This document shows, piece after piece, positions 1,087 to 58,272 of a stretch of DNA of 64,000 nucleotides. Source of the stretch: Xestospongia bergquistia (Eukaryota; Porifera; Demospongiae; Haplosclerida; Petrosiidae); assembly GCA_963965975.1 (NCBI GenBank), contig OZ014417.1, positions 6,057,821 through 6,121,820 on the forward strand, written 5' to 3'. The translations under genes and the position numbers were made by a program. The notes beneath the pieces were generated by a model. That model saw nothing but the letters and a program-made list of their open reading frames with translations. It was not told where the DNA came from and did not search any database. Position 1 is the first letter of the stretch; every line of letters starts with the position of its first letter.

Positions 1087-1150
1087 GATACCTAATGGTA
1101 TCATTAGTCACTATACTATAGTATAGTGACTAATGATACCATTAGGTATC
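1087..1150. repeat. Perfect 64-bp palindrome inside a broken FN3 exon
   Basis: Every base from 1087 to 1150 pairs with its mirror around 1118/1119. The right half is FN3-2 exon sequence of copy A read on the minus strand, and the left half is the same 32 bases inverted. It marks the point where the exon is interrupted. Confidence 0.95.
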
Positions 1151-9830: not shown

Positions 9831-10289
9831 ATAATATAAACATGTAGTTGTTATTCTTGTATGTATTTTTTTTTAAATAATTGTCTTTTTGTTTCAAACT
9901 GAATTTAAATAATTAGTAACAACAGCAATACTGCCATGCATACGTCACTGTAAAAATTGTTTGTTGATTGAAATGATTAATGAGTCACTTGATCTGCATC
10001 TCAGGTTTTTCTTGGTTAAATGATGCCTAAAAACACATTTGCAGCATATATTGTATTGACTATTACTTACTAAAATTCCATGGTGACTACTGCTGGCTCT
10101 AGTTAAATAGTTATTTTGTCAATGGTTAAACACAATCTTCAACTCTTCAACCCCCACACATACTTTCCCATCTGATTACATGTTGTTTCAATTCCCAAAT
10201 CCTTTGACCTAATTTTGTAGATGTTGGTGCTCTAGCATTAAAATGACAATATAGAGTTCCTTGTAATAATTAATATTACTCATGGTATT
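9831..10289. other. Spacer between pseudogenes B2 and B1
   Basis: AT-rich sequence; a degenerate tail exon of B1 could be hidden here, but I could not identify one. Confidence 0.3.
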
Positions 10290-13200: not shown

Positions 13201-13542
13201 ATAGATAACATCTGGAGACTATTTTTTCCTGGCCCAGTCCCACATATTGATTATAAACACTACCATATTAAATAATAGTATATAAGAAAGCCATGCAAAT
13301 ATACAAAGTTATTATTCATCATTCTAACCCATCTCAATAAATATGTCCCTACCAGCCACATAAGGTGTAAGTAGCACGATATCTAACATATGATGTTACA
13401 CAAATACATAGTATGAACAAGATGCTACAGCATGACAACTGCATATGATAAGACAGATTACAATAATACAGTGTTACAATAAAGCTAACACTTCTATCAA
13501 AACTGTATAGCAAAGCAATACTACAATCAATAGCCTCATCAT
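10290..13542 (-). pseudogene. Copy B1: receptor-like pseudogene with an inverted duplication in the membrane exon
   Basis: Minus-strand exons: signal peptide 13490-13542 (starts MMRLLIVVLLCYTVLI), EMI first half 13329-13438 (frame lost, early TAA), a calcium-binding EGF remnant about 12186-12290, FN3-3 about 11960-12110 and 11782-11873, FN3-4 (5' part missing) about 11597-11750, a short exon about 11493-11554, the juxtamembrane/membrane exon 10740-11442, a cytoplasmic exon near 10640-10680, and a Tyr-rich exon about 10320-10385 containing YDQM. No EGF repeats and no FN3-1 or FN3-2 were found. The membrane exon is interrupted by an inverted copy of its own first half (separate entry). The lesions make a functional product very unlikely. 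Confidence 0.7.
11031..11442. repeat. Large near-perfect palindrome, arms about 205 bp
   Basis: The left arm 11031-11235 is the reverse complement of the right arm 11237-11442 with only a few mismatches and a one-base centre. The right arm is the first half of the juxtamembrane exon of B1 in its proper minus orientation. The left arm is the same piece inverted, after which the exon resumes at about 11025. Both arms share changes not seen in genes C and D, for example near the centre, so the inverted copy was made from this locus. Confidence 0.9.
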
Positions 13543-14860
13543 TTTAGAGTTTGACCACTGACTACAAAATATATGTAATTCACTTTAAAACTGATTGGTT
13601 GATTTAAGTCATTAGGTGCAACAATGTATGTTTGAGAACATTCTCAACTGTGGTGACACCTCAAGTGATCAATATGATGACAAAAACATTATCAAGGGGA
13701 CCCTGGACTTGATATGATAAAGGCTCAATTACCTTCGCAACATTCACTGGGATGCACTCGTCTAGTCCTCTGACCCCATGAACATAATATTATAGTTTGC
13801 TACTGACTTTCTTCCCCCTCAGCAGTTCAGATCAAAAGATAGTTGTATTTGTCTGAGTTTTGATATGATGCTTGAGAGAGATGTAGCAATCCTATCTTAC
13901 ATATTATCTTCTAACTTACTAATGCCGTCAATGCTTGATTATATTCTGGTTCATAAAATATTTAAATTCATGGTTAGTAGAATCAGGGACATTATTTGAC
14001 AATTTGATCTGGAATTCCAAAAATTTCCTTCAGTTTCTTAACACTAAAATAATATATCACTATAGTAAATGCTATTATATATGACAAAACTTATAAAGTC
14101 ATTATTACTGCTTTCAATCTGCAGACTATACTATCTTCATACCTAGGCATTCAGTGATAAAACATTTGGGTATATGAGGCTACTATTATACATATCATTT
14201 AGTGTGACCTGAGGAAATAGTTATTCAGTCATACTTATTACATTACTTAAAATTTGCCTTATTAACAAACGACATTTTTATACCTGTCTTGATACTCCCT
14301 ATACATAAAATAGACCAGATCTAATTTAAAATACAATACTGATCAAGTCTATTGTTCTTCCTTTGTCTGTCAACTTTCTTTGATTATTATGCAAGCCTTT
14401 TGTGCTTTTCAGTAGTTTTTAAACTTTGAAAATTCATTTGGCAAGCCTCTGTATGAATTACAAGTGTAGGTACCATTTGTCCCTTTAAATTAAAGTTACT
14501 CCAATTACACTTAAAGAAACCTCAAGTTCGTGACTTAGCAAATACAATTTTAATTGCATCTTTGTTAGTTAAATTTATGAAAATTTTAATATCATGATAC
14601 AATTTTGTGAACTCAAAATAAATAAATTGTCATTATTATTAGACTAATGTTCAACAGTAGCAAAATTCTTATGAAAACATTCAAGGAGAAGTTACTGGGT
14701 TTTATTAATGAAAGCCAGTAGTTTATCATTGAATATTAGTTGCGATCCATGGTATATTAATTTAATCTATATTTGCAACAACATAGATAATTCAACACTT
14801 TTTACAAGGATTTGTGAAAAAAAATCATGAAAAATAAAAATAAAGAATTATCTGCCTCTT
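13543..14860. other. Intergenic DNA with an old relative of the gene C/D 3' flank
   Basis: No gene is supported. The part at about 14331-14600 is visibly related to 31236-31420 and 60310-60500, the DNA about 2 kb downstream of genes C and D. A short stretch near 13585-13620 resembles the terminal repeat of the MITE at 25103. Confidence 0.45.
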
Positions 14861-17254: not shown

Positions 17255-20200
17255 GCGTGTCCAAGAATTGCTACGTTTCCCTACATCGTTTACTGATTTT
17301 GTCTTTTCATATCAATATGACTATCAGTTGCATACTACACAGACTACATGGCCATCAGTAGTTTATTTTAACTCGTATATTCCATATTATGTAAAATAGT
17401 AATAATGATATAGATGGAAATCGGGAGATGAGAATAAACCTATTGGTAACAAAATAAAAAAGGATTAAGAACAAGCATTGGGCATGGTTAACTTTATATG
17501 CAAATATTTAGTTACTTGCTATGAACTTGTAAGTATTCTTTTTTCTGAATTTCTAGCATTAAAATATACACGATTAGTGTCAATTGAGTCATTATTTTTG
17601 TAATAGTACGTAGTTTGCTGTGCCTACGTACTGAGTGCCACCCTTTTTGCTAATCTCTAAATAAATTTGTTGATCAATAACATTATTATATAAACAGATT
17701 GTAACACAATCGCATTAACAAAATACAAATATAATTGCACAAATAATTATGATTATAATGCTAAATATAAAAAAAGTTAAGTTATACACTTTTCCATTTT
17801 GCATATCCTCCCTCTATAACTTCCTGAACAAAATAAAAAAGTTACAATGGATATAGTAATAACTACATGAACAATATGTTAACTGACAAACATTAGCTGT
17901 CTTTATTTTATCTTTTATTAGCTGAACATGTCAGTCTTAAAATATTAAATTCTATGTTGAAATTAAATTACTTGATGATATTGTAACTTAAAGAGTATAA
18001 GTATTGTCTACTTTATTATTGATGCTATACGTCTGTAAATTAATATGTCAACAGGAGGTTAAAACAAGTGGCAGGACCCTATGCCTTGCTAGAACAATCA
18101 CATTGTTGTCGAAGTAGATTGGTTGTTAATCTGATACATTGTCACTTGTAATTTGGTTGCAATTCATGTCTATAAAATACATTAAAGTGATAAATTAACT
18201 GCATTAACTATTAATTAATATTAAACTGCACAGCCATGCAGTGTATTCTCAAAAAGTCTACATGTTAAGTATAGTCAATGAGTAGATGTTAGTAAGGATG
18301 AGAGTATGACTTTTATTATTTTAAAGCAAAATATGTCCATTTTAAGTGACTATACATGGATTGGTTAGATCAACCAATTTGTAGTTATAGTGAATTTAAC
18401 AAGTCAATAAAACGTTTTCCCTAATATGAAGAAATGGCAAATGTGGAAGTTACATCATTCTTCACAAGAAGTAATAAATTGCAACAATACAATCTAACTA
18501 TTTAGCTCTCTTTTTATAATAAACAATTTGAATATGCCTTTTCTAAATGAATGTTTTTAATTTAATGGTTTAGATATATTACTATATGCCTTTAATGGCT
18601 TAATGTTTTTAGGTGTTTGCTTTTGTGTAAAGTAAATATATCTATAACTTGTTAGGTTTATTTTGTTAATGGTGTAGAGTTGGTTTAGTTAATTGAACGT
18701 AGTGTGAATTCACATAATTTAAAGGTTGTTTTTGATAACAGAATGAATTAAGGAATACAGATAGTGTTTTTTATATTTTTCATTCTATACTACCATAACA
18801 ATTGACATGTTAACAGGATTAAAAACAAGTGACATGCCCTACACAGTCTGTTTTTGACCACACCATCATTACAACACATTCCTGTTTAACTGATTAATGT
18901 CACTTAAATTTTTATTGCACACATGCCTACAAAATCATTAAAATAATTATATTAACAGTTGAAGTGAATTCAACATGTAAATAAAATTATTTTTTCTAAA
19001 ACGAAGTGATGGCTAACAAGGCAGTTGTATCATCATGCACAAGTAATAATAAATTGAACAGTAATTATATTATAACTATTTAGATCTATTAGATCTGTTG
19101 AGAAACAATTTCATTCTGACTTTTTTAAATGGAGTGTTTAAATAAATTTGTGGCTTAGATATCAAACTAGATGTTTACAATGGCATATCTTTTAAGATAT
19201 TTTTTTGTTTAACGTGAATAATTATGTCTTTAATCTGTTAAGCTTATCTTGCTAATGGTGTAGAGTTTACTTAGTGCAATAAACATAAATGTAGGCTCGC
19301 ACTTTACAGTATGGATTACACATTTGACAAATAAATGAAGATTGCCATTTAATTGTATCTCAACAGTCTTGTACTTTTGGAAGTAAGTAAAGACAATTTC
19401 CTGCTATAATTTTCAGCTTAAAACAGAATCAATAACATATGAGCGATAACCCAGTAATTTTATACCCAGCTACTATGCATAGAATTTCTTTGTTGCACTA
19501 CAAGAATAGTTAATACAAGTTCTGAGCTACTTGTTGTTATTGCTCATTTACTTAGTTATTAATAACTACATTTATATCATAATGGAAAAATTTCTAAAAA
19601 TAAAGCTAATTTAGGGATGGATAATATCAGTCCAATAAAAAGAATGAAAATAAGAGAGTAGGGATGGCAATTGCGTTATTATCGCTATGAAATAGGTGTT
19701 GTCAATAACTCTACATTTATGCAATTAGGTAGTTATGTAATAAGTTAATCTGTATGTGTTGATTACTGTATATGTAATTAAAACCTAGGTGTTAAATAGT
19801 ATTAATTAGAGTATTAAATTTTAAGCTCACCTATTTTAGTCCTTCCTTTGAGCTATATTTATGCCTGTTGCTATTTATGTTGTGATCCTTTGTACTTCCA
19901 ATTGAACTTTTGGAAAAACCTTATGAGCCCAGTCTCCAATTCTCGAGTCTTCACTGAAAGTGTGCTTTTTTAAAGGTTTTTCAGACTTTCAAAGCTTTTT
20001 CTTCTTTTGACGCTCCTTTTGGCAGGATTCATAAGAAGTAAAGAAGTTTTGCTACCGTCCACTATAGTTTGGTGGCTACCAGTGCTGTGTTCGCCGAGTA
20101 AAGCAGTTCAAAGCCAGGTAACGAGCACACAAACTACAGTAACCGTCGCTATATTTGCTCACACAATTAAAAATTGAGCAAGCAACTAAAAAAATTCTAA

Positions 20201-21850
20201 CAAATAAAGTTAATATTGGGATGGGTAATGTCAGTCCAATACAAATAGGGATGTCAATTGCATCATCATTCCTATGAAATAGATCTATCATATAGAGTAG
20301 CATAAACAGGAAGGTAACTATCTAAATTAGTTATATGAGTGATTGCATTCTGTGCCTGTGACGTTATGTAGGTGTAAAGCAATTGCAATTCCAACTATTT
20401 TGTTTGTATTTTTTGTATTGGACTGATATTAACTTTCCATAAATTTACTTATTTTTAGAAGATATTTGTAGCAATTTACTCAATCATGGTAGATGCTATT
20501 ACATGGTAATATTCAATACTAGTACTCATGCAGATTGAGTACTAAGGATATTATATTGTTCATAACCTCCTCCCTAAACATTCGTAAAGTGTAGGTTAGC
20601 ATCTGTTTTACAATTTTACAAATGACACTTAAGAGTTTTGTATTCTTACATGATCAGTTGACTTTTATTATATAACCACACTAAAGAGCATCAGAGCTAC
20701 TAAAGAGAGTTGTTTTTCTCATCTGTTATTGATTGTGTCTATGTTAAGAAACAAGGGATGTTCATAATTACTTTATCATATAATGATGACAAGTAAGTTG
20801 ATCACCAGTTTTACATAATTAATTAAATTACAATGAAATATAATACAAAATTTAAAACATATAGAAATATTACTGACTTTTATCAAATATAAGTTATAAG
20901 TTTCCTTTTTATAAGATGCCCCACTATGACAAAAAAATTTTCTACGTCAATCTATTACATCTAAGAGAAAAATAAAGAATCATGAGATAAGAATGTAGTT
21001 AAATTATTAAATGAATGGAAATCAAGGGTATAGATATCCATTTCTATTTTGTAATTTCCTGCTCTACTTTTAATTTATATATCTCACCAATCAATTCTTT
21101 TATCACATCGTTTAGCAACATACTAAGCCGAAATAACAAATATATAATAGTATTAATAGGGAATTCTTAGACTTTAGTATATCTTCAAACATATTCTGTA
21201 TTAACACACCCAGAATTAGCAGTTATGTTAATTGACAATATTATGATTGTCAGAGAACTTACTTGAATGGTCATCAATATAGAGGTACTGGGTTTACTTA
21301 TATTTAACATGATGTATGAATTGAAGATCTTTTTCTAAAATGAAAAGTTGTTTTTCAATATCATCTGTTTAAGTAAGATGTATGGAAATAAAATTAACTC
21401 AGAACAGTTTCACATCAATAGAACTGCATGAAAATAAATAAACAAATCAAATAGTAGATCTTAGCTTGATGTCTACCACAACATTACAAAACGTTCAAGT
21501 ATAATCAGTATTGCAAGCAATGATAACATAGCAATAACCAACTAACCTGTCACATTCAGGTGAGTGTAACATTATACACAACAAACATCTACTAAACATT
21601 GGGCAAGCTGTTTCTTTAATGACAACTTGAAATTTCTTACTTCTAAATCATTGAACTCTACACATACACAGTTAAATTAAACATAAACATGTGTGTTTAG
21701 AGATTAAGTTTTGGGTTGTACATTGTACTAAAATGTAGAAATTTTATATTGCGTACAGCCATCCTCTATATTTCAAGAATGTGTTAAATATCTAATGGCA
21801 TCATTTGTGTATTTGTTTTAATTTAGAGATAAAAACACCTGATTTATTAA
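17255..21850. other. Upstream DNA of gene C, no supported gene
   Basis: AT-rich and largely matched by 48015-52226. A minus-strand frame at 20076-20303 has a hydrophobic segment and recurs at 50581-50787. A diverged relative of its middle part lies near 19600-19760, so a local duplication exists. The plus-strand frame at 50296-50496 is broken in this copy. No family was recognised and conservation here only reflects the recent duplication. Near 21014-21070 is a possible fossil of the short MITE subfamily, also seen at 42094 and 51390. Confidence 0.4.
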
Positions 21851-21853
21851 AAC

Positions 21854-21861
21854 TATATAAA
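21854..21861 (+). promoter_or_regulatory. Candidate TATA box of gene C
   Basis: TATATAAA lies 35 bases upstream of the ATG, in a block of about 200 bp that is conserved before the start of C, D and fragment E. An AG preceded by a T-rich run lies between it and the ATG (ttttacag), so this could instead be the end of a 5' UTR intron. Confidence 0.35.
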
Positions 21862-21895
21862 ATTTTAATTTTACAGTTAGTGTTGAAACTCTAAA

Positions 21896-24800
21896 ATGAA
21901 GAAGCTTGTGATTGTTTTGTTTTGTTATACACTTTTGATGGATAGGTAAGCTTTATTATGCGACTGTATTATTGTAATATGTTTTATCATATACAGTTGT
22001 CATGCTGTATCATCTTGCTCACAATATGTAGCTGTCTCTTCTGTAAGATCATTTGTTGGATACTATGTAACTTACAACTCATGTGTTGTTAGGAAAAGAA
22101 GTAATTGTCAAAGCAGGTTAGTATGATACTTTCTATTAAATATTTTTATATATTTATAATTAATATTTTTTTAATAATACATATGACATCATACATTCCT
22201 AACATTATTTCTATTAATTAGATTATTCTTGACAGTGGTTAAAAAATCTTATATATATTTAGCAACAAAACTTAGTTAAAAAAATAATTTATATGCTTAT
22301 CTTCTTAGATATACATGCAAATAATACAGCAATAACAAATACATATTTATACTATAATATAGTACTCATTCTATGACAAAATATAAAGTGACTTACAATC
22401 TTCAACTGCAATGTTGTTCAGGTTATGGTCCTATGGCTGCTGGACCAAACTGTCTACGTAAGTTATACTTACTATTGACATACACAGAACATTATAATAT
22501 CATAATTTAGCAATTTGCAATCCAACATGTAGCACTAACATGGAATGCTCAGCTCCTGACACTTGTACATGTGTCAGTGGATGGAAAGGCAGTAACTGCT
22601 TAACACGTATGGTTACATTTTCTTGTGGACACATAATTATTGTTTCCTGTCAACACAGCAATTTGCAGTTCAACATGTGGCACTAACAAACAATGTACAG
22701 CTCCTGACACTTGTACATGTCTCAGTGGATGGAAAGGCAGTAACTGCTTAACACGTATGGTTACATTTTCTTGTGGACACATTATTGCTTCCTCTCATCA
22801 CAGCAATTTGCAGTTCAACATGTGGCACTAACAAACAATGTACAGCTCCTGACACTTGTACATGTGTCAGTGGATGGAAAGGCAGTAACTGCTTAACACG
22901 TATGGTTACATTTTCTTGTGGACACATAATTATTGTTTCCTGTCAACACAGCAATTTGCAGTTCAACATGTGGCACTAACAAACAATGTACAGCTCCTGA
23001 CACTTGTACATGTCTCAGTGGATGGAAAGGCAGTAACTGCTTAACACGTATGGCTACATTTTCTTGTAGACACATTATTGCTTCTTCTCATCACAGCAAT
23101 TTGCAGTTCAACATGTGGCACTAACAAACAATGTACAGCTCCTGACACTTGTACATGTCTCAGTGGATGGAAAGGCAGTAACTGCTTAACACGTATGGCT
23201 ACATTTTCTTGTGGACACATTATTGCTTCTTCTCATCACAGCAATTTGCAGTTCAACATGTGGCACTAACAAACAATGTACAGCTCCTGACACTTGTACA
23301 TGTGTCAGTGGATGGAAAGGCAGTAACTGCTTAACACGTATGGTTACATTCTCTTGTGGACACATTATTGCTTCTTCTCATCACAGCAATTTGTAGTTCA
23401 ACATGTGGCACTAACAAACAATGTACAGCTCCTGACACTTGTACATGTGTCAGTGGATGGAAAGGCAGTAACTGCTTAACACGTATGGTTACATTTTCTT
23501 GTGGACACATTATTGCTTCCTCTCATCACAGCAATTTGCAGTTCAACATGTGGCACTAACAAACAATGTACAGCTCCTGACACTTGTACATGTGTCAGTG
23601 GATGGAAAGGCAGTAACTGCTTAACACGTATGGCTACATTTTCTTGTAGACACATTATTGCTTCTTCTCATCACAGCAATATGCAGTTCAACATGTGGCA
23701 CTAACAAACAATGTACAGCTCCTGACACTTGTACATGTGTCAGTGGATGGAAAGGCAGTAACTGCTTAACACGTATGGTTACATTTTCTTGTGGACACAT
23801 TATTGCTTCTTCTCATCACAGCAATTTGCAGTTCAACATGTGGCACTAACAAACAATGTACAGCTCCTGAAACTTGTACATGTGTCAGTGGATGGAAAGG
23901 CAGTAACTGCTTAACACGTATGGCTACATTTTCTTGTAGACACATTATTGCTTCTTCTCATCGCAGCAATTTGCAGTTCAACATGTGGCACTAACAAACA
24001 ATGTACAGCTCCTGACACTTGTACATGTGTCAGTGGATGGAAAGGCAGTAACTGCTTAACACGTATGGTTACATTTTCTTGTGGACACATTATTGCTTCC
24101 TCTCATCACAGCAATTTGCAGTTCAACATGTGGCACTAACAAACAATGTACAGCTCCTGACACTTGTACATGTGTCAGTGGATGGAAAGGCAGTAACTGC
24201 TTAACACGTATGGTTACATTTTCTTGTGGACACATTATTGCTTCTTCTCATCACAGCAATTTGCAGTTCAACATGTGGCACTAACAAACAATGTACAGCT
24301 CCTGAAACTTGTACATGTGTCAGTGGATGGAAAGGCAGTAACTGCTTAACACGTATGGCTACATTTTCTTGTAGACACATTATTGCTTCTTCTCATCGCA
24401 GCAATTTGCAGTTCAACATGTGGCACTAACAAACAATGTACAGCTCCTGACACTTGTACATGTGTCAGTGGATGGAAAGGCAGTAACTGCTTAACACGTA
24501 TAGTTACATTTTCTTGTGGACACATTATTGCTTCCTCTCATCACAGCAATTTGCAGTTCAACTTGTGGTACTAACAAACAATGTACAGCTCCTGACACTT
24601 GTACATGTGTCAGTGGATGGACAGGCAGTGACTGCTTGACATGTATGGTTACATTTTCTTGTAGACACATTGCAATTATTAATTACTCTCAACACAGCAC
24701 TTTGCAGTTCAACATGTGGCACTAACAAGCAATGTACAGCTCCTGACACTTGTACATGTGTCAATGGATGGACAGGCAATGACTGTTTAACAGGTATTGT

Positions 24801-27800
24801 TTTTATAATATTGATATGATGAATTACCTACTTGCAATTGTCAATAAGCATCAAATATACTGCTAATTTTTATTAATAGATATCAATGAATGTTCACAAA
24901 ACATATGTCAAATTCAGTGTACTAATACTAAAGGATCATACATCTGCTCCTGTGATACATCAAGTGTCCTTGCTACTGATGGAATTCATTGCTTAGGTAG
25001 ATAACAAAGGTCTATGATAAAAAACATCGTCAAAAACTTAAATTGTGATAAGCATATTAGTCTTCCAATAACTCTCTTTGTGTATCCATAAAGGGTTTTG
25101 TACACTGTAAAAAATGATTGGTTGATTTAACCATTATTTGGTTATACAGGTTGCAATTACAAACTTATTTTTGTTAGAAAAGTAAGCATAATACTGTTTT
25201 CATTACTAATGCCCTACTGTTTATGTAGCTACATAACCATTAATTAAATAATACATTAGTAATCAAAGTAGTATTACTTAGTTACTTATTACATATGCAA
25301 CCCACATAACCATGTATTGGTTAAATTAACTAATCAATTTTTACAGTGTAATGATCACATAAGGCATGTAAATTATGTTCTACAATAGAGTACATAATTA
25401 AAAAAGTATTGTATTACTAACACTTTTTTCTGCATAGGAGCTATTCAAGACATGACCTTTTCACAACTCACCAGTACACACTGCATAATAACATGGAATC
25501 CTCCATTTCAATACATGCAATATGGAAGTTTTTATGGTTACATAGTGATGTGTAATATATCAAATACTAACACTACAATAGCATCAGACATCACTCAGAA
25601 ATTGAATGTGTCTGTATTATTGCTAAAACCTTTTACTTCATATTTTTGCTGTGTCACACCTCAATGGACAAATAATGGAAAAGGAAAAACACAGTGTGTT
25701 AGATTTACTACATTACAAGATGGTAAATGACAGACTAACTATTATTAATTAAGTTATAACTTACCAATTTAGCTCCTAATGATTCTCCAGTAAATGTTAC
25801 AGTCAGTGTTGTTAATTCTTCATCTCTTCAAATTCTGTGGAAGCCTCCATTGATACCTAATGGTGTCATTACTGACTATACTCTGTATATCAACTATACT
25901 AATGGTAGTGAGATATCTACTAGAACTATAGATAGTCAGTTCACATTATATCTACTGGAGGGACTGACACCCTATCAACAAGTAGGAGTAAGTCTCTCAG
26001 CTACAAATAGTGGAGGAGAAGGACCTCAGTCAGACTATGTCTACAATATAACTGAACAGTCAGGTTAGATTGATGGGTGGATTAATATACATACAAAAAG
26101 AATAGATAGATGAAAAGTGCTTATAAAAATATTTATTTCATATGGTGAATTATAGAGCCAGGCACCATACATCATTTGACTCTCAATGTGCTATCTAATT
26201 CATCTGTCAACATTTCATGGAAACCACCATTGTTGTCAAATGGAATTATTTTATACTACTACATCAGTATTAGGAGTTTGACAGAAAATCAATTTGTCAT
26301 ATTTAATCCTGAAGAAAACGTATACACAATAAACAATCTGAGTTGGTTACATCATCAATTATATTTGTTATAATTTATATACTATTTATAGTTCCTTATA
26401 CTCCATATGAAGTTAATGTCTCTGCAGTTACTATTGCTGGTATAGGAAAACCTTTGCATAAAATATTTTTTACTAAAGAGACGGGTAAATAAAGAAACAA
26501 GCTTATAAATAATAATTATAATATTATTATGAAATTAAGTCATACTGTTTACAAATTGTTTATTATTATGTAGTCCCCAGAGTGGCTCCAAACATTGAGG
26601 TAGCACAGAGAGTTTCCTCAACTGAAATAATCATAAAAATAAAACCACTAACACTAGAAGAGGGGAGAGGAATTTTGACAGGATATTCCTTTAATCTGAC
26701 CAAATCAATAGATCATTGTGTTGTGGTTGACATGAACAAATTATTAATAGATACTGTTAATACTTCAATTAAAGTAGGAAATCTGGATCCACTCTCAAAA
26801 TATTGTTTGTCAGTGTCAGCACAAACTAAAGAAGGACATGGTTTGGAATCTCAAAATATATTAATTCCTGGTTAGTTTAGTTATAAGTATAACTAAAAAT
26901 TTTACATCATAGCCTTGAAGTGTATGACAGCAAACAGATTGTTATGTATATCAATGGATTGGATAACTGTTATCTGTGGATAGTAAGTTATATAATAATA
27001 ACAAATATTATAATACAGTTTATTATTATAATAGCTAAATAAAACTGAAAGTAAACTCACTGAGATTACTCAAGTCATAATTACAGTATTGAATAATGTC
27101 TGTTATTGTTCAATAACTTCAGACTACATATCAGATAACACTTTACAATGTGACAATGAACATACAATACAATTGATTGCAAGATTATCTGCTATATCTA
27201 ATTTCACAACATCACAACTATTGACTATATTACAAAATTGGACAAGAGTTTCTTCAGAAATAGTAGTTGATGGGCAGGCATTAACAGTGATATCAGTTTA
27301 TTTTCTGTCAAATAATTCAATGCCAATACTCACTAGTGGCACTACAAAAGACAAAGTGATTTTATTCAGTACAATTGGTTCTGCTGGTGGCTTGTCATTT
27401 TTTCTTTGTCTTTGTTGCATAATAATATCAGTTTGTATTTTTAAGAACTTTAAATCAAACAGAAATTACGAATTAAAACCAAGGTTTGTCTTTCAAAACA
27501 AGTTAAAACAATGACGATGTCATTACAATATATACAGAGGACATAAAATGAAAGGAAGAGATGATGACAATGAACATTATTACTATTTTGTAGAAGAAAC
27601 AAAGCTTCATGATGAACAGTACTTTGTACATGATAACAATGATATTTCTCCAAATAGGTAATCAGATATTTATCACAAAATGATATTTAATATGGAGTTT
27701 TAAAAGTTTTGTAGATTCTAAAGCCTGTTATGATGACATAATACTAACTGAAAATTCCAAAAAAAAGTATGTAGGATATTGTATGTGATCATGATGTGAG

Positions 27801-29227
27801 TAAATTGCGGTGTACCTGTTTTCAATATTTTGAGTAATATTACTAGCAATTGCATTGCATATTGTCATTTGTTAGGCCACTAATCCCTACAAAATTAAGT
27901 CAAGGAAAAGTAAAGGATAGCAGTTGTACAAGTACAGCTACTAGTGTTTTTGATTCTCCTACTATTACTTGTACAGAAATAAGGCAAGTAAATAAACTCT
28001 CATGTTGTCCTTACAAATGTTAAATGCCATGGTATAATTATAGTATACTTCAGAGTACCCAAAAGAAACCAACTCCTACTGTTCCTTCTCCTAAGAAAGC
28101 AAGGTAAACCAGTCATATATAATGATGACAACACTGTACATATATGCTATAGTAAACATGGAGCCTCAGATGTAAAAAATTGTGAAATGTCATACAATTA
28201 TAGTTATGGCAAAGGAATGACTTCGCAAAGGAAACCAAATCCTCCAGTTCCTCCTCCTAAGAAAGCAAGGTAAACCAGTCATATATAATGATGACAACAC
28301 TGTACATATATGCTATAGTAAACATCGAGCCTCAGATGTAGAAAATTGTGAAATGTCATACAATTATAGTTATGGCAAAGGAATGACTTCGCAAAGGAAA
28401 CCAAATCCTCCAGTTCCTCCTCCTAAGAAAGCAAGGTAAACCAGTCATATACAATGATGATATATATTGTGCACATATAACTATAATAAACATGGAGCCT
28501 CAAATATAAAAAACTTTGAAATGTCATACAATTATAGTTATGGCAAAGGAATGACTTCGCAAAGGAAACCAAATCCTCCAGTTCCTCCTCCTAAGAAAGC
28601 AAGGTAAACCAGTCATATACAATGATGATATATATGGTGCACATATAATTATAATAAACATGGAGCCGCAAATATAGAAAACTTTGAAATGTCATATAAT
28701 TGTAGTTATGGCAAAGGAATGCATGCACAAAAGCAACCAATTCCTCCTGTTCATCCTCCTAAGAAAGCAAGGTAAACCATGTAATAATGATGACATACAC
28801 TGTACATGGAGCCTTCGACATAAAACATTTTGATATTCATTACACTTATAGTTATGGCAAAGGAATGACTTCAGAAAGAAAACCAATTCCTCCTGTTCCT
28901 CCTCCTAAGAAAGCAAGGTAAACCAGTCATATATAATGATGATATATATTGTACACATATACCATAGTAAACATGAATTCTCAGATGTAGAACATGTTGA
29001 AATGTCATACAATTATGGTTATGGCAAAGGAATGCATGCACAAACAAAAGCACTTCCTCCTATTCCACCTCCTAAGAAAACAAGGTAAATTAATCATATG
29101 CAATGATGACATATACTGTATAATATACTGTAGCAAACATGGAGCCTCAGATGTTGAACATTTTGAAATGTCACATAATCATAGTTATGGCAAAAACATG
29201 TCTGCACAAAAGCAAGGAGTACCTTAG
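21896..29227 (+). CDS. Gene C: EMI, 16 EGF, calcium-binding EGF, 4 FN3, single-pass receptor-like protein
   Basis: Predicted exons: 21896-21945 (signal peptide), 21997-22116 and 22363-22457 (EMI, ends LQLQCCSGYGP), sixteen 96-bp EGF exons from 22511 to 24793, 24880-24996 (DINEC-type EGF), 25438-25722 (FN3-1), 25773-26063 (FN3-2), 26156-26341 and 26392-26484 (FN3-3), 26574-26870 (FN3-4), 26921-26982, 27035-27483 (juxtamembrane domain and membrane helix), 27538-27657, 27707-27766, 27876-27987, 28054-28103, then repeated tail exons to the TAG at 29225. All junctions are GT-AG, phases agree, and the sum (4566 nt) is an exact multiple of three. Many Asn-X-Ser/Thr sites lie in the FN3 region. The tail holds a YDDI motif and repeated PxxPxK motifs but no kinase. 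I infer a cell-surface adhesion, scavenger or recognition receptor signalling through SH3/SH2 adaptors. The ligand is unknown. Some small exons (26921, 27707 and the tail) are less certain. Confidence 0.85.
22511..24793 (+). repeat. Tandem array of 16 EGF exons with minimal introns (gene C)
   Basis: Each unit is a 96-bp exon plus a short intron, 145 bp in most units (49-bp intron) and 148 bp where the intron is 52 bp. Exon starts: 22511, 22659, 22804, 22952, 23097, then every 145 bp to 24547, and 24698. Each exon is phase 1-1 and encodes 32 residues with six cysteines (C-x3-C-x5-C-x5-C-x-C-x8-C). Introns are as similar to each other as exons are. The block 23822-24256 is repeated at 24257-24691, a three-unit (435-bp) higher-order repeat. 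The last unit and the first differ most. Confidence 0.92.
25103..25348. mobile_element. 246-bp MITE with TA target duplication, absent from gene D
   Basis: Terminal inverted repeats of about 50 bp begin CACTGTAAAAA on both ends. TA flanks each side (25101-25102, 25349-25350). The matching intron of gene D has the empty site with a single TA at about 54743. It has no coding capacity. TA duplication fits Tc1/mariner-type or similar transposition. Confidence 0.88.
28054..29227 (+). repeat. Tandem tail exons with Pro-rich motifs (gene C)
   Basis: After a leading short exon (28054-28103) come exons 28153-28269, 28319-28435, about 28538-28603, 28706-28771, 28852-28917, 28968-29084 and the terminal 29134-29227. 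Full units are 117 bp (39 codons, phase 2-2), typically with a 49-bp intron, and carry a Tyr-rich part (SYNYSYGKGM) followed by PPVPPPKKAR, which fits the class II SH3 ligand pattern PxxPx(K/R). In three units the normal acceptor AG is lost, but an internal acceptor TATAG or TGTAG before TTATGGC keeps the frame and gives a 66-bp short form. Confidence 0.75.
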
Positions 29228-32200
29228 GTTCTCCCTTTCCTCCAAATATGTCAGGTGACTAAAATTTATTTCTCAATTTGTTATAACTTTAAAAACTGCT
29301 AAATGCTGCAAATTCCATAGCTAAATAACAGTTTTGTCATAACGATAATTACAATGAACTTTAATATTCAATGTCAAAGAAGTGCTAGTAAACTAGCAAT
29401 ATAATTCAGTAGAATTACTGAATATGTGATATGAAGATGTTTTTGTTCTTATTATTGATACATATAATAGTCTCTTCTCTTGCTTCTTTGCTGATGCCAT
29501 GCATGTAAGACGTGTGGCTCATTTATTGTCATTTTTAGGTTGTGGCTATCTTAGGCTTGTTTACAGGTATGCATTTCAATGACAACAGCAATTGTTCATT
29601 AGCTTTGACATCTGCAGAAATCATACACTGATGTCTATGATAATAGGTAGAAAGATCTAAAGATCTGCTTGCACCTTTCTATTGAACTAGACATGAAATG
29701 TGCTATTTATTTATCCTAACTGGTTTGACATACAGCAATAATTATTAGCATTTACTACATGAGTAATACAACAATCAATGTAGCTGATCAATCTTTAATA
29801 ATTGTTGTATAAAAGTTAGTTTTATTATCTACTTTCAAATATGAAGCTAGTCTGCTTGAGTCCTAAGTACCTCAAACTATATTAGTAATATCCTGGGATT
29901 AAATTCCATTGGATGGCTGCATTTAAGTAATCCAGTATACATATATACCACAAATCATCTTGGGACTATCCTGAAATTACCACACCATGAATGCATAGGG
30001 CAATGTGTCCAAAACAGTATACTTAGTCCATCGTTGTACTATAGTGGCTTAAGAACACATTGGTCCATTGTGTCTGAGTGCCTCAGCATACCTTGATACT
30101 ATCCAGGGATAAACGCACCATAGATGGATGTGGGCCATTGTGTCTGGGATTCTCAGGAAATTCTGGTACTATAGCACGATATCCACACCCATATCCTTGG
30201 CATTCTTATACTATATAAAACCACAGTATAGATCCATGAGCCCATTATGTTCAGGAAAATAACACGGATGCATTAGATATTAATGTGGTCATCTGGGTTA
30301 GTAAGGGATATCCTGAGATACTTATGACACCAGAAATACTCAGATACAATTGGTTTGTGCATCCATGGTGTGGTCATCCCAGGAGAGTGCCAGGATATCC
30401 CAAGGAACTTAGGACACCCAGAAAACAAAGGATACTCACACCATTGACTTTTGTTACCATTACTTGATAGAGTGAGGCAACTCTAAATACTAAATAATAT
30501 TAGAGAAATGTCTATCACCATATCATATATGGAAGAGATAATATTTTGTTATATATTTTAAAAGACCTGATTTGTTTAGTGATTGCTTACATGATTGATG
30601 TAAGTGATATAAAATTGTTAGTGTTAAATATTGAGTAAAGTCTAAATGTGACCGGATAATGACAAGATGTCATTAAACATTATGATTCTATAAAATAAAG
30701 ACACCTGCATGGTGACTTCCTAGTGGGTGTCTTTAGTCTTTTCAGCCTCAATTGATTTGAATCAAATAAATTAACTATAACTACTAACATGTTAAGTGTT
30801 AACATTCATATGCTGTTTCGTATTGAGTTAGAGATATACCAAATTCCATCAACTTTTGGCATCATCACTAGGGCCTTCTATTTTTCAAACTCACACATAT
30901 GTCTACTAATATATTCCATATAGATATTACAAACACACAATTAACAACTGACTTTTTGGCTCCTCTTTGTAAATTAATCTCCACTAACTGTCCTAATCCT
31001 GCTTCCTGCAATATTTTAAATCCTACAATTGCTCCTTGCTTATTACCCCTTGATTAAAATTTCTTTTAATGCAACAGTGCATTTAGATATAATACTTTGT
31101 CAGGTAGTAATAGTGAAAATGATGCTAGTCCTTGCCCTGATCTTTGTGGCTGTAGTCCTTAAAGTACTATGGGGAATCTTTTTCAATTTCTAAAGAGGTG
31201 TGAAGTAACTTATAGCATCATACCCATAAAGTCTTACTGATAAAGGTCTATTTTTCCTTCTTTGTCTGCAAAGTGTCAATGAAGTATTGTCTGAGTACCA
31301 TCTTGTGCTTAAAATTAAAGTTTACTTCTAATTACACTTATGAATTCTTAATTAAATTGTGACTTGATCTCTAATACAATTTTTGTTACATCCTGGTTAG
31401 TTTAATCCATGAATGTCTAAAATGAACTAAAATAAAATATCTATCATAATACTACTAACTAAATTCCATTGAAGCTTGTCTTCCTCAACATGTATTTTAT
31501 ACAGTTTTCTCACAACTTTCTAAAAAAGCAACATAAAAATAACTCACTCAAATAATGAATTGTTTTACTTTAACTTCTGGAAAAATCTTTGTGTTGAACA
31601 TTTTAGAACAATTTGAATCACATGGGGTATTTTCAAATACTTTCTTCAACATCCAACTATTTTTCTGCATAAATGATTGGCCAGCAAGTGATGCATTCTA
31701 CTGGATGTTAATGGAAGTATTACACAAACAAAGCAAGAAAACAAAACAATCTGTTTTTTTATTAATACTTGTATGTCTATCTGTCTGTCAGTTTGTATAA
31801 TATTATGTAAAAAATAATATATATAAATGATATATATTTTTATTGGATCAGTTTCAGAACCAATATATGGAAACATGGCTGAATGAGGACACCCTAGCCA
31901 ATTACATCACATATCACTTTACACACAATTGAAGAATATGCCTACATTGACAGTGATACTATCCACAGTCTATATGTGTAGTATCTAATACCTGTAGATA
32001 TAGTAATATGAGATATCATTGAATAGAATGATGTGTTTATGAGTAGTGTGATAAACAGACACAAATAAATCAAGCAGTAAGAATAAAGTTAACTGACCTG
32101 TACTCTATAGAAAATTACAATCTGTAACATTGATAGAACATTTTACAACATTTTATGGAGTAGACTCTTACAAATATTCCACAGACTAGTGCCAGTATAT

Positions 32201-32832
32201 TAAGCTCAGTTCATTCCTTGCGTCATAAAAGGAGTGAGATTTTGCCTAACCAATTGTAAAACTCAGTATAAATCAGTGACACTCAGAAAGAAAACACAAC
32301 ATTAATTATAACACAGTCTTACAAATTCTTCATTATCGAGGAGTTAGAACATAAACCTAATAATAATATTCTATACCAGTGACACTTGTGAACTAGAAAC
32401 ATATCACTTTTGTAAGGTAGAATGAGAGACACTCAATCCTTCATTGATTCCTGCAGTATCATATCAGTATTTAAATTTTGGCAGCAAAGTGTACATGTTC
32501 ATGTGAGTTGTAGTATACTGACTCAGTATACTACCGGTAGAGTTGTAGTATACTGAGTTAGTACATTCTATTATTCAAAAGCGAAGAATTTTTGTTATTA
32601 AATTATTATTAATTTCTTAATTCTAATTCCTTACGGAGTATCTGTACAGTTGCATATCTACAGATGAGGATCTCTCAAGTATTTGTATAGAACTCAAGTA
32701 CAAAGGAAAATATAACTCTACTTCTTATTGATGATCCATCTACTACTCTCTGAAGTACATTATTTAGACTGTATTGATGCTTTGAGAAAGGGATAAATTA
32801 AGTGGTATATATTCTCTCTAACCTATTAATAT
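29228..32832. other. 3' flank of gene C
   Basis: No supported gene. AATAAA-like signals exist but none is clearly the poly(A) site. The stretch 29890-30440 is built of degenerate, partly inverted short repeats with a higher GC content. On the minus strand, about 30830-31060 can be read without stops for roughly 60 codons (contains AIVGFKILQEAGLGQLVEIN), possibly an exon remnant of another gene. A plus-strand frame at 31555-31800 recurs at 60629 with an in-frame 12-bp deletion. A 25-bp palindrome lies near 32510-32534. Confidence 0.4.
29890..30440. repeat. Degenerate short-repeat block
   Basis: Phrases such as ACTATCC.GGGATAAA, CACCATGGATG and GTGTCTGAGT..CTCAG recur in loose direct and inverted order. 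The block is present in both duplication copies (about 58930-59510 in copy 2). It may be an old tandem or fold-back repeat. Confidence 0.5.
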
Positions 32833-36833
<4,001 letters not shown>

Positions 36834-52271: not shown

Positions 52272-55200
52272 ATGAAGAAGCTTGTGATTGTTTTGTTTTG
52301 TTATACACTTTTGATGGATAGGTAAGCTTTATTATGCGACTGTATTATTGCAATATATCTTATCATATACAGTTGTCATGCTGTATCATCTTGCTCACAA
52401 TATGTAGCTGTCTCTTCTGTAAGATCATTTGTTGGATATTATGTAACTTACAACTCATGTGGTGCTAGGAAAAGAAGTAATTGTCAAAGCAGGTTAGTAT
52501 GATACTTTCTATTAAATATTTTTTATATATTTATAATTAAATTTTGCTTTTAAGGATACATATGACATCATACAATCCTAACATTATTTCTATTAACTAG
52601 ATTATTCTTGACAGTGGTTAAAAAATCTTAAATATATTTAGCAACAAAACTTAGTTAAAAACAATACATTTATATGTTTATCTTCTTAGATATACATGCA
52701 AATAATACAGCAATAACAAATACATATTTATACTATAATATAGTACTCATTCTATGACAAAATATAAAGTGACTTACAATACTCAACTGCAATGTTGTTC
52801 AGGTTATGGTCCTATACCAGCCTTGAACTGTCTACGTAAGTTATACTTATTATTGACATACACAGAAAATTATAATATCATAATTTAGCAATTTGCAGTC
52901 CAACATGTGGCACTAACATGGAATGCTCAGCTCCTGACACTTGTACATGTCTCAGTGGATGGAAAGGCAGTAACTGCTCAATACGTATGGTTACATTTTC
53001 TTATGGACACATTATTGCTTCCTCTCATCACAGCAATTTGCAGTTCAACATGTGGCACTAACATGGAATGCTCAGCTCCTGACACTTGTACATGTGTCAT
53101 TGGATGGAAAGGCAGTAACTGCTCAATTCGTATGGTTACATTTTCTTGTGGACACATTATTGCTTCCTCTCATTACAGCAATTTGCAGTTCAACATGTGG
53201 CACTAACAAACAATGTACAGCTCCTGACACTTGTACATGTGTCAGTGGATGGAAAGGCAGTAACTGCTTAGCAGGTATGGTTACATTTTCTTGTGGACAC
53301 ATTATTGCTTCCTCTCATCACAGCAATTTGCAGTTCTACATGTGGCACTAACAAACAATGTACAGCTCCTGACACTTGTACATGTGTCAGTGGATGGAAA
53401 GGCAGTAACTGCTTAATACGTATGGTTACATTTTCTTGTGGACATATTATTGCTTCCTCTCATCACAGCAATTTGTAGTTCAACATGTGGCACTAACAAA
53501 CAATGTACAGCTCCTGACACTTGTACATGTGTCATTGGATGGAAAGGCAGTAACTGCTCAATTCGTATGGTTACATTTTCTTGTGGACACATTATTGCTT
53601 CCTCTCATTACAGCAATTTGCAGTTCAACATGTGGCACTAACAAACAATGTACAGCTCCTGACACTTGTACATGTGTCAGTGGATGGAAAGGCAGTAACT
53701 GCTTAGCAGGTATGGTTACATTTTCTTGTGGACACATTATTGCTTCCTCTCATCACAGCAATTTGTAGTTCAACATGTGGCACTAATAAACAATGTACAG
53801 CTCCTGACACTTGTACATGTGTCAGTGGATGGAAAGGCAGTAACTGCTTAACACGTATGGTTACATTTTCTTGTGGACACATTATTCTCTCATCACAGCA
53901 ATTTGCAGTTCAACATGTGGCACTAACAAACAATGTACAGCTCCTGAAACGTGTACATGTGTCAGTGGATGGAAAGGCAGTAACTGCTTAGCAGGTATGG
54001 TTACATTTTCTTGTGGACACATTATTGCTTCCTCTCATCACAGCAATTTGCAGTTCAACATGTGGCAATAACAAACAATGTACAGCTCCTGACACTTGTA
54101 CATGTGTCAGTGGATGGAAAGGCAGTAACTGCTTAACACGTATGGTTACGTTTTCTTGTGGACACATTATTGCTTCCTCTCATCACAGCAATTTGCAGTT
54201 CAACATGTGGCACTAACAAACAATGTACAGCTCCTGACACTTGTACATGTCTCAGTGGATGGACAGGCAGTGACTGCTTAACATGTATGGTTATATTTTC
54301 TTGTAGACACATTGCAATTATTAATTACTCTCAACACAGCACTTTGCAGTTCAACATGTGGCACTAACAAGCAATGTACAGCTCCTGACACTTGTACATG
54401 TGTCAATGGATGGACAGGCAATGACTGTTTAACAGGTATTGTTTATATAATATTGATATGATGAATTAGCTATTTGCAATTATCAATAAGCATCAAATAT
54501 ACTGCTAATTTTTATTAATAGATATCAACGAATGTTCACAAAACATATGTCAAATTCAGTGTAGTAATACTAAAGGGTCATACATCTGCTCCTGTGATAC
54601 ATCAAGTGTCCTTGCTACTGATGGAATTCATTGCTTAGGTAGATAAAAAAGGTCTATGATAAAAAACATCGTCAAAAACTTAAATTGTGATAAGCATATT
54701 AATCTTCCAATAACTCTCTTTGTGTATCCATAAAAGATTTTGTAATGATGACATAAAGCATGTAAATTATGTTCTACAATAGAGTACATAATTAAAAATT
54801 ATTGTATTAATAACACCTTTTTTCTGCATAGGAGCTATTCAAGACATGACCTTTTCACAACTTACCAGTACACACTGCATAATAACATGGAATCCCCCAT
54901 TTCAGTACATGCAATATGGAAGTTTTTATGGTTACATAGTGATGTGTAATATATCAAATATTAACTCTGTTATAGCAGCAGACATCATTCAGAAATTGAA
55001 TGTCTCTGTATTATTGCTAAAACCATTTACTTCATATTTTTGCTGTGTCACACCTCAATGGACAACTAATGGAAAAGGAAAAACACAGTGTGTTAGATTT
55101 ACTACACTACAAGATGGTAAATGACAGACTAACTATTATTAATTAAGTTATAACCTACCAATTTAGCTCCTAATGATTCTCCAGTAAATGTTACAGTCAA

Positions 55201-58200
55201 TGTTGTTAATTCTTCATCTCTTCAAATTCTGTGGGAGCCTCCATTGATACCTAATGGTGTCATTACTGACTATACTCTGTATATCAACTATACTAATGGT
55301 AGTGAGATATCTACTAGAGCTGTAGATAGTCAGTTCACACTATATCTACTGGAGGGATTGACACCCTATCAACAAGTAGGAGTAAGTCTCTCAGCTACAA
55401 CTAGTGGAGGAGAAGGACCTCAGTCAGACTATGTCTACAATATAACTGAACAGTCAGGTTAGATTGATGGGTGGATTAATATACCTACAAAAAGAATAGA
55501 TAGATGAAAAGTGTTTATTAAAATATTTTTTAATATGGTGAATTATAGAGCCAGGCACCATACATCATTTGACTATCAATGTGCTATCTAATTCATCTGT
55601 CAACATTTCATGGAAACCACCATTGTTGTCAAATGGAATTATTTTATACTACTACATCAGTACTAGGAGTTTGACAGTAAATCAATCTCTCATAATTAAT
55701 GTTGAAGAAAACATGTACACAATAAACAATCTGAGTTGGTTACATCTTCAAATATATTTGTTATAATTTATATACTATTTATAGCTCCTTATACTCCATA
55801 TGAAGTTAATGTTTCTGCAGTAACTATTGCTGGTATAGGAAAACCTTTGCATAAAATATTTTTTACTAAAGAGACAGGTAAATAAAGAAACAAGCATATA
55901 AATAATAATTATAATATTATTATGAAATTAAGTCATACTGTTTACAAATTGTTTACTATTCTGTAGTCCCCAGAGTGGCTCCAAATATTGAGTTAGCACA
56001 GAGAGTTTCCACAACTGAAATAATCATAAAAATAAAACCACTAACACTAGAAGAGGGGAGAGGAATTGTGACAGGATATTCCTTTAATCTGACCAAATCA
56101 ATAGATCATTGTGTTGTGGTTGACATGAACAAATTATTAATACATACTCTTAATACTTCAATTAAAGTAGGAAATCTGGATCCACTCTCAAAATATTGTT
56201 TGTCAGTGTCAGCACAAACTAAAGAAGGACATAGTTTGGAATCTCAAAATATACTAATTCCTAGTTAGTTTATTTTAATATTCAAATTTTACATCATTCC
56301 TTTAAAGTATATGACAACAAACTGATTGTTATGTATATCAATGGATTGGATAACTGTTATCTGTGGATAGTAAGTTATATAATAATAACAAATATTATAA
56401 TACAGTTTATTATTATAATAGCTAAATAACACTGAAAGTAAACTCACTGAGATTACTCAAGTCATAATTACAGTATTGAATAATGTTTGTTATTGTTCAA
56501 TAACTTCAGACTATATATCAGATAACATTTTACAATGTGACAATGAACATACAATACAAATGAGAGCAAGATTATCTGCTATATCTAATTTCACAACATC
56601 ACAACTATTGACTATATTACAAAATTGGACAAGAGTTTCTTCAGAAATAGTAGTTGATGGACAGGTGTTAACAGTGATATCAGTTTATTTTCTGTCAAAT
56701 AATTCAATGCCAATACTCACTAGTGGCACTACAAAAGACAAAGTTATTTTATTCAGTACAATTGGTTCTGCTGGTGGCTTGTCATTTTTTCTTTGTGTTT
56801 GTTGCATAATAATATCAGTTTGTATTTGTAAGAAGTTTAAATCAAACAGAAATTACAAATTAAAACCAAGGTTTGTCTTTTAAAACAAGTTAAAACAATG
56901 ACGATGTCATTACAATATGTACAGAGGACATAAAATGAAAGGAAGAGATGATGACAATGAAGATTATTACTATTTAATAGCAGAAACAAAGCTTCATGAT
57001 GAACAGTACTTTGTACATGATAACAATATTTCTCCAAATAGGTAATCAGATATTTATCACAAAATGATATTTAATATGGAGTTTTCAAAAGTTTTGTAGA
57101 TTCTAAAGCATGTTATGATGACATAATAATAACTGAAAATTGCATAAAAAAGTATGTAGGATATTGTATGTGATCATGATGTCAATAAATTGCAGTGTAC
57201 CTGTTTTCAATATTTTGAGTAATATTACTAGCAATTGCATTGCATATTGTCATTTGTTAGACCACTAATCCCTACAAAATTAAGTCAAGGAAAAGTAAAG
57301 GATAGCAGTTGTACAGCTACTAGCGTTTTTGATTCTCCTACTATTACTGGTACAGAAATAAGGCAAGTAAATAAACTCACATATTGTCCTTAGAAATGTT
57401 AAATGTCATGGTATAATTATAGTATATATCAGAGTACCCCAAACAAACCAACTCCTCCTGTTCCTTCTCCTAAGAAAGCAAGGTAAACCAGTCATATATA
57501 ATGATGTCAACACTGTACATATATGCTATAGTAAACATGGAGCCTCAGATGTAGAAAATTTTGAAATGTCATACAATTATAGTTATGGCAAAGGAATGAC
57601 TTCGCAAAGGAAACCAAATCTTTCAGTTCCTCCTCCTAAGAAGGCAAGGTAAACCAGTCATATACAATGATGATATATATTGTGCACATATAACTATAAT
57701 AAACATGGAGCCTCAAATATAGAAAACTTTGAAATGTCATACAATTGTAGTTATGGCAAAGGGATGCATGCACAAAAGCAACCAATTCCTCCTGTTCATC
57801 CTCCTAAGAAAGCAAAGTAAACCATGTAATAATGATGACATACACTGTACATGGAGCCTTCGACATAAAACATTTTGATGTTCATTACAATTATAGTTAT
57901 GGCAAAGGAATGACTTCAGAAAGGAAACCAATTCCTCCTGTTCCTCCTCCTAAGAAAGCAAGGTAAACCAGTCATATATAATGATGGTATATATTGTACA
58001 TATATACTATAGTAAACGTGAATTCTCAGACATAGAACATGTTGAAATGTCATACAATTATGGTTATGGCAAAGGAATGCATGCACAAACAAAAACACTT
58101 CTTCCTATTCCACCTCCTAAGAAAACAAGGTAAATCAGTCATATGCAATGATGACATATACTGTATAATATACTGTAGCAAACATGGAGCCTCAGATGTT

Positions 58201-58272
58201 GAACATTTTGAAATGCCACATAATCATAGTTATGGCAAAAAAATGTCTGCACAAAAGCAAGGAGTACCTTAG
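52272..58272 (+). CDS. Gene D: EMI, 11 EGF, calcium-binding EGF, 4 FN3, single-pass receptor-like protein
   Basis: Exons: 52272-52321 (signal), 52373-52492 and 52744-52835 (EMI), eleven 96-bp EGF exons from 52889 to 54435, 54522-54638 (DINEC-type EGF), 54832-55116, 55167-55457, 55549-55734, 55785-55877, 55967-56263 (FN3 series), 56308-56369, 56422-56870 (juxtamembrane domain plus helix), 56925-57041, 57092-57151, 57261-57366, 57433-57482, tail exons 57532-57648, 57751-57816, 57897-57962, 58013-58129 and 58179-58272 (TAG). All are GT-AG, and the sum (3891 nt) divides by three. Same design as gene C with five fewer EGF units and a shorter tail. The membrane segment follows VILFSTIGSAGG. That both copies keep an uninterrupted frame across about 30 exons argues that both are functional. 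The role is inferred as a surface receptor or adhesion protein. Confidence 0.85.
52889..54435 (+). repeat. Tandem array of 11 EGF exons with minimal introns (gene D)
   Basis: Exon starts: 52889, 53034, 53179, 53324, 53469, 53614, 53759, 53899, 54044, 54189, 54340. The unit is 145 bp except one 140-bp unit, whose intron (53855-53898) is only 44 bp. Units starting at 53034 and 53469 share variants (CVIGWKG, CTCAATTCG), as do those at 53179 and 53614 (TTAGCAGG end), showing the same 435-bp three-unit period as gene C. Confidence 0.92.
57433..58272 (+). repeat. Tandem tail exons with Pro-rich motifs (gene D)
   Basis: A leading 50-bp exon, two 117-bp units (57532, 58013), two short-form units (57751, 57897) that need the internal acceptor, and the terminal exon. 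PxxPxK-type motifs (for example PPKKAR) recur. Two 117-bp units fewer than expected from gene C account for the shorter array. Confidence 0.72.

Follow-up and report, generated by a model that had tools for sequence, protein, structure and literature searches.

Arrays in which exons have multiplied together with their introns, and in which the copies evolve in concert, are already known from human LPA KIV-2 and from SmPoMuc of Schistosoma mansoni, as set out in the cited parts of two papers (PMC7613587, PMC2576457). SmPoMuc is a clustered multigene family with tandem repeats, as many as 20, of an exon and its flanking introns. Microsatellites lie between the units, which are about 1 kb long and contain a 27-bp exon, and the repeat number differs between individuals (PMC2576457). 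In the cited part of that paper, the authors stated that an edge-to-centre gradient is expected of unequal crossing-over, that it is absent there, and that they favoured gene conversion. The LPA KIV-2 unit is about 5.5 kb with two exons; these exons are 98-100% alike, and the number of units is very variable in the population (PMC7613587). Concerted evolution of the PIGSFEAST repeats in Drosophila dumpy was attributed to unequal crossing-over in the cited part of that report (PMC2930355). In a sponge, the cited part of PMC10855680 describes gene-level duplication in SRCR clusters, which contain receptor-type genes with two to six domains in sister copies.

Here we describe arrays of this kind in two sister genes, C and D. 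The window is the whole stretch of DNA that was analysed, 64,000 nucleotides long. Our main reading, to which we give a probability of roughly four in five, is that C and D come from a cluster of related type I receptor genes in which two short exons, each between introns of the same phase, were copied together with their introns, and in which misaligned exchange changes the number of units. Exchange between misaligned repeats would add or remove blocks of whole units, often three. In long arrays it would homogenise the central units and leave old units at the edges. Each gain or loss would keep the frame and the standard splice sites, so that protein length could change without breakage.

Gene models and array units

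The spliced models of both genes are open on the assembled sequence, with 38 exons and 1523 aa for C and 31 exons and 1298 aa for D (Table 1). The domain order is signal peptide, Cys-rich N-terminus, EGF array, EGF-CA-like domain, four FN3 domains, linker, membrane-proximal domain, transmembrane segment and tail. From this architecture, C and D are putative type I membrane receptors, and a function in reception or recognition may be proposed. The same cytoplasmic exon has a GC donor instead of GT in both genes, at 27984 in C and 57363 in D.

Table 1. Positions of gene C, gene D and other elements in the window
Feature	Position	Strand	Basis
Gene C, signal-peptide exon	21896-21945	+	open spliced frame
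Gene C, two N-terminal Cys-rich exons	21997-22116, 22363-22457	+	open spliced frame; EMI-like by eye only
Gene C, EGF array: 16 exons of 96 bp, phase 1-1; 15 introns of 49, 52 or 55 bp	22511..24793	+	TRF
Gene C, EGF-CA-like exon, single copy	24880..24996	+	Pfam EGF_CA 22.1 bits, below cut-off of 27
Gene C, four FN3 domains, five exons, single copy	25438..26870	+	Pfam fn3 7.5e-39, 4 stretches; exon order in paralogs
Gene C, linker exon	26921-26982	+	frame fixed from a comparison of 14 family genes
Gene C, membrane-proximal domain and transmembrane exon	27035-27483	+	family alignment; without Pfam match above cut-off
Gene C, three cytoplasmic exons	27538-27657, 27707-27766, 27876-27983	+	last has GC donor
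Gene C, second array: 7 PxxP exons (60, 66 or 117 bp, phase 2-2) and terminal exon with stop	28044..29227	+	TRF, spliced model
Gene D, signal peptide and two N-terminal Cys-rich exons	52272..52835	+	spliced model
Gene D, EGF array: 11 exons of 96 bp, phase 1-1	52889..54435	+	TRF, open spliced model
Gene D, EGF-CA-like, four FN3, linker, membrane-proximal/transmembrane and three cytoplasmic exons	54522..57362	+	spliced model
Gene D, second array: 5 PxxP exons and terminal exon with stop	57423..58272	+	spliced model
Gene A, family member: 3 EGF units (one shortened), second FN3 matched only in part	1-2870	-	
Gene B, family member, exons out of order or damaged	7940-13545	-	
Family fragment: EGF-CA piece and two weak, damaged EGF matches	40540-41137		
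Family fragment: signal peptide, N-terminal exons, single EGF unit	42416-43062		
Retroelement open stretch, reverse transcriptase / RNase H-like, between C and D	43712-45041	-	
Retroelement open stretch, reverse transcriptase / RNase H-like, beyond D	63279-63875	+	

Several domain and gene assignments were examined. No Pfam match to an EMI domain was found at E values up to 5. The membrane-proximal domain is conserved and gave no Pfam match above the cut-off; an AlphaFold model of its exon (mean pLDDT 53.4, pTM 0.40) was too poor to use. In one frame, the linker exon of gene D contains a stop and lacks its acceptor, which would make the gene broken. This was ruled out, as the comparison of 14 genes fixes the linker frame and leaves the models open. 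A kinase receptor was rejected for both genes: in each tail the PxxP exons are followed by a terminal exon with a stop, and no kinase domain was matched in the shortened C model.

Known receptors with EGF modules differ from this plan. MEGF10, PEAR1 and Draper have an EMI domain followed by EGF modules and a transmembrane segment, without FN3. C and D have four FN3 domains and no EMI match in Pfam. Teneurins have type II topology and a beta-propeller/barrel body. In the shortened C protein only the EGF modules match teneurin models, the N-terminal leader is hydrophobic and the transmembrane segment comes late.

The array unit is a whole exon plus intron, repeated head to tail and in frame, as in arrays of the LPA KIV-2 and SmPoMuc kind. 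An AG acceptor and a GT donor bound every 96-bp EGF exon in both genes. The spacing between units in C is 145 bp in 12 of 15 cases, 148 bp in two and 151 bp in one. The introns of D are 49-55 bp long except one of 44 bp, whose unit is 140 bp. TRF scores were 4051 for C (95% matches) and 2605 for D (93% matches); at the score of C, chance similarity of the units was ruled out. Each array exon encodes one six-cysteine EGF module. Pfam models for PEAR1-like proteins and teneurins match these modules, as do PDB chains of WIF-1 and teneurin, and the 32-residue EGF consensus is common to different family genes.

An earlier note on this DNA had counted 16 EGF exons in C and 11 in D and described them as symmetric phase 1-1 exons amplified together with their introns. 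Its coordinates for C are correct to the base, with 22511 as the start of the first array exon and 24793 as the end of the last. Both numbers were recovered when 96-bp exons with AG/GT ends were counted, the symmetric phase was found in both genes, and the unit structure and the whole-unit block duplications described below support the view that exons and introns multiplied together. A unit of 145 bp is right for most spacings in C and not for the remaining ones in C or the 140-bp unit in D. "Coding minisatellite", the name used in that note, is too loose. A classical minisatellite is a short tandem unit without a spliced intron, and the units of C and D, of 140-151 bp, include one.

A clustered family with differing unit numbers

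A search of the 146-Mb genome gave at least 42 near-full-length matches to the second FN3 domain with at least 66% identity, one of them with a stop. All listed matches lie on the contig of the window, at 3.47-4.00, 5.32 and 5.66-6.58 Mb. The larger clustered family, together with a second array in the cytoplasmic tail, goes beyond the earlier note. Among intact-looking genes in the stretches examined, the order of single-copy exons is constant; the tandem exons are EGF exons, PxxP exons and one cytoplasmic pair. This pair is present three times in two sister genes (L021:1033-2008 and L024:1699-2659), where it forms a third multiplied part of the tail.

Unit numbers vary widely. In 13 tabulated genes the EGF count ranges from 3 (gene A) to 36, gene 5920599 has 9 units, and 2.5-kb pieces of six further genes contain about 1 to 8, with one array probably cut. 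Sister genes have 16 and 11 units (C/D), 15 and 36 (5742203/6039536), and 7 and 7 (5674738/5793390, well supported). Stops, frameshifts or lost splice sites break the arrays of 5693501, 5913573, 6265107 and 6251618.

The earlier note also held that the length of the extracellular stalk can change freely. Gain and loss do keep the frame, and free change is an extrapolation, given the sister pair with equal numbers and the symmetric exons that remain single-copy. In C, the FN3 and EGF-CA exons next to the array also have lengths divisible by three and phase 1-1, yet each is present once, so phase symmetry alone is not the cause of the arrays. Once a short unit had been duplicated, exchange could plausibly sustain itself, with selection tolerating or favouring the change in length.

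EGF intron lengths have a bias of their own. In all arrays of the stretches examined, 145 of 191 introns have a length of 3n+1, compared with 36 of 3n and 10 of 3n+2; the bias is probably due to descent. Stop-free introns make up 35 of the 36 whose length is divisible by three. In the 36-unit array (L027:2224-6448; contig C7 6040224-6044448), 16 of 35 EGF introns are 45 bp long, a multiple of three, and stop-free in frame, and open frames of up to 348 aa read through the array.

Other observations were made around the family genes. Kinase-domain matches are interspersed with them on contig C7 at 6.34-6.50 Mb, for example at 6337110-6337811 and 6461743-6462456. At L033:1-617, a stretch that looks like a CCHC zinc knuckle by eye precedes a damaged EGF fragment, which suggests a retroelement insertion. 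In the window, G+C reaches 0.446 at 62-64 kb. A 43-mer was also sought in two non-animal collections, genome_contigs and viral_contigs, with 0 matches. Among the literature matches listed, no title was about this receptor family, and the part of PMC3447736 that discusses sponge scavenger receptors gave no match to the family of C and D.

Block turnover and homogenisation

The duplicate that contains C and D spans 18443 to 32843, about 14 kb, and matches at 92-96%. The flanks of the two arrays had been called nearly identical, and this is borne out by identities of 95.8% over 5.6 kb, part of the array included, and 92-93% over downstream blocks of 3.6 and 4.6 kb. From FN1 to the transmembrane exon, single-copy exons of C and D differ by 3.8% and introns by 5.2%.

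Within the arrays we found long exact repeats. The longest measure 385 bp in C and 258 bp in D, both offset by exactly 3.00 units; unit C10 is identical to C13, and D3 to D6. Between C and D, exact matches reach at most 141 bp in the arrays, and 106 bp where about 3 kb of single-copy sequence was compared. Since no exact C-D match in the arrays is as long as either internal repeat, the block duplications postdate the split of C and D. Gain or loss by whole-unit blocks after that split, as proposed earlier, is supported by these three-unit repeats. In array 6039536 the longest exact internal repeat is 413 bp, with an offset of one unit. Similarity at lag 3 had p<0.05 in 6 of 8 arrays tested, where up to nine lags were tried, p values are uncorrected and lags 1 and 2 were also significant in several arrays.

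Arrays as repetitive as these are hard to assemble, and collapse or expansion by the assembler could mean that 16 and 11 are not the true numbers. We consider this highly improbable. Distinct variants follow one another in order along the units, edge units agree between paralogs, C and D have open frames, and a long read can span even the largest array, of about 5.2 kb.

To compare units within and between genes, we scored the nearest unit in 14 arrays of at least five units, omitting last units, which have no array intron. The nearest unit was in the same array for 129 of 181, compared with a mean of 14.2 and a maximum of 30 in 500 label shuffles. In C this held for 14 of 15 units; the exception was the penultimate unit, C15, which is nearest to D10. 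It held for 5 of 10 units in D, and for none in the short arrays 5822055 (0/4), 6147282 (0/6) and 5913573 (0/7). Homogenisation of exons and introns is therefore not general: it is found in long arrays, in half of D, and not in these three short ones.

According to the earlier note, introns are as homogenised as exons. This is roughly so and not uniform, as the introns of C vary more than its exons and those of D less. Diversity among C units 2-14 is 1.0% in exons and 4.4% in introns (12 of 13 introns, the 52-bp one omitted), and among D units 2-9 it is 6.1% in exons and 2.1% in introns (7 of 8, the 44-bp one omitted). Divergence was calculated from 192 of 195 units, those with exons of exactly 96 bp. 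Intron divergence within arrays is 0.5 to 2.2 times the synonymous divergence, with 0.066 and 0.054 in C. Array 6540028 had the highest ratio (0.328 and 0.146); its introns of 52 and 55 bp are arranged in a three-unit pattern. All 14 arrays with at least five units had a pN/pS of 0.27-0.83. From these two ratios, the whole unit is copied, under moderate purifying selection on the protein.

These values also bear on the possibility that the arrays are real but were fixed long ago, with unit similarity due mainly to purifying selection on the EGF fold. The consensus shared between genes, the pN/pS values and the sister pair with 7 units each would fit. However, introns and synonymous sites are homogenised too, and the exact blocks of 385 and 258 bp span introns and exceed any exact C-D match in the arrays. 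We regard old, fixed arrays as quite unlikely.

Edges differ from middles. In 13 arrays, the distance from the array consensus was 0.088 for edge units (n=39) and 0.041 for internal units (n=148). The pooled gradient favours unequal exchange, the process put forward in the earlier note, but single arrays show it at significance in only 4 of 13 cases, and one array, a broken one, has a slight reversal. Terminal units resemble the terminal units of other genes: the matching fraction was 0.75 for last units (expected 0.07), 0.38 for penultimate units (0.08) and 0.65 for first units (0.08). One of the 13 first units was mislabelled, and without it the fraction is 8.5/12 (0.71). The exons of C16 and D11 are identical.

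The homogenising process could instead be gene conversion within and between genes. Some exons of C show zero differences from exons of gene 6197586, and array exons of these two genes differ by 4.5% on average compared with 8.2% for single-copy exons. Conversion alone would not necessarily produce whole-unit block offsets or changes in number, though, and a gradient from edge to middle, as in the pooled arrays, is what unequal exchange should leave. For most units the nearest unit is in the same array. In the listed pairs of C or D with other genes, differences amount to 0.13-0.17 in array introns (0.36 with 6540028) and 0.12-0.23 in other introns. To explain the array introns, strong conversion between genes need not be invoked, although C and 6197586 resemble each other more in array exons than in single-copy exons. 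Much of the observed pattern could also arise by slippage or gene conversion; conversion in place of unequal crossing-over is in our judgement unlikely. We infer that the misaligned exchange takes the form of unequal crossing-over, and it may continue within the species.

The cytoplasmic array and comparison with known systems

The second exon-plus-intron array lies in the cytoplasmic tail of genes that carry the EGF array. Its exons encode PxxP motifs, and the tail is rich in Tyr and PxxP. The full form of the exon is 117 bp and is preceded by an intron of 49-50 bp. The PPVPPPKK core of the tail repeats resembles a class II SH3 ligand motif and is a candidate for that role.

A second in-frame AG lies inside the 117-bp exons of C at 28153 and 28319. 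This, with the uniform phase 1-1 and AG/GT ends that would let any subset of EGF exons in C and D be joined, could suggest that protein length varies mostly through alternative splicing. Splicing does not explain the differences in unit number in the DNA itself, and we hold it to be a very unlikely main source of variety.

EGF and PxxP numbers were compared in 13 genes. The Spearman correlation was 0.57 (p=0.041). After correction for relatedness, with polytomies resolved arbitrarily and PxxP numbers tabulated by hand, the link was not significant (r=0.41, p=0.17, 12 contrasts). The link between the two numbers is weak. Under unequal exchange, the number of EGF units may tune the reach of the stalk outside the cell and the number of PxxP units the count of SH3-type ligands inside. 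In a further reading, individuals would differ in both numbers, and one recombination process would tune reach and signalling valency together, possibly for sorting self from non-self or for sorting microbes. The weak link between the two numbers lowers the odds of such hypervariable receptors, which we consider quite unlikely. If they were real, dozens of clustered receptors would be tuned by a single recombination process.

The locus offers a compact case in which a domain array grows by in-phase units of a single exon and a 49-bp intron, and does so in many neighbouring sister genes. The series of 3 to 36 units can be used to measure the rate of protein-length change and the units that escape homogenisation. 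With the second array in the tail, one can ask whether both ends of the receptor change together; the present answer is weak.

The EGF modules are of the same six-cysteine type, in tandem, as those of PEAR1-like proteins, teneurins and WIF-1, judging by the Pfam and PDB matches. In contrast to these proteins, C adds an EGF-CA-like domain, four FN3 domains, an unmatched membrane-proximal domain and a PxxP tail, and has no Pfam EMI. Sponge SRCR clusters, in the cited part of their description, are likewise clustered with differing domain numbers; the domain is another one, and exon-plus-intron arrays are absent from that part (PMC10855680). In dumpy, as far as the cited part goes, coding repeats also occur in an EGF-rich protein, but within one large exon (PMC2930355). 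LPA KIV-2 resembles the sponge array in that a folded extracellular domain has multiplied with its introns. It is a lipoprotein gene with a two-exon unit, whereas the sponge unit is one exon and a 49-bp intron in a family of membrane proteins known from one assembly (PMC7613587, cited part). SmPoMuc, as portrayed in the cited part of PMC2576457, shares with the sponge receptors the tandem exon and intron, the clustered genes, a number that differs per gene and concerted evolution. Compared with it, the sponge unit is about 145 bp and encodes a whole EGF domain, a pooled edge gradient is present, and each gene has two arrays. C and D are set apart by the small unit, a folded domain per exon, arrays on both sides of the membrane and many clustered sister genes.
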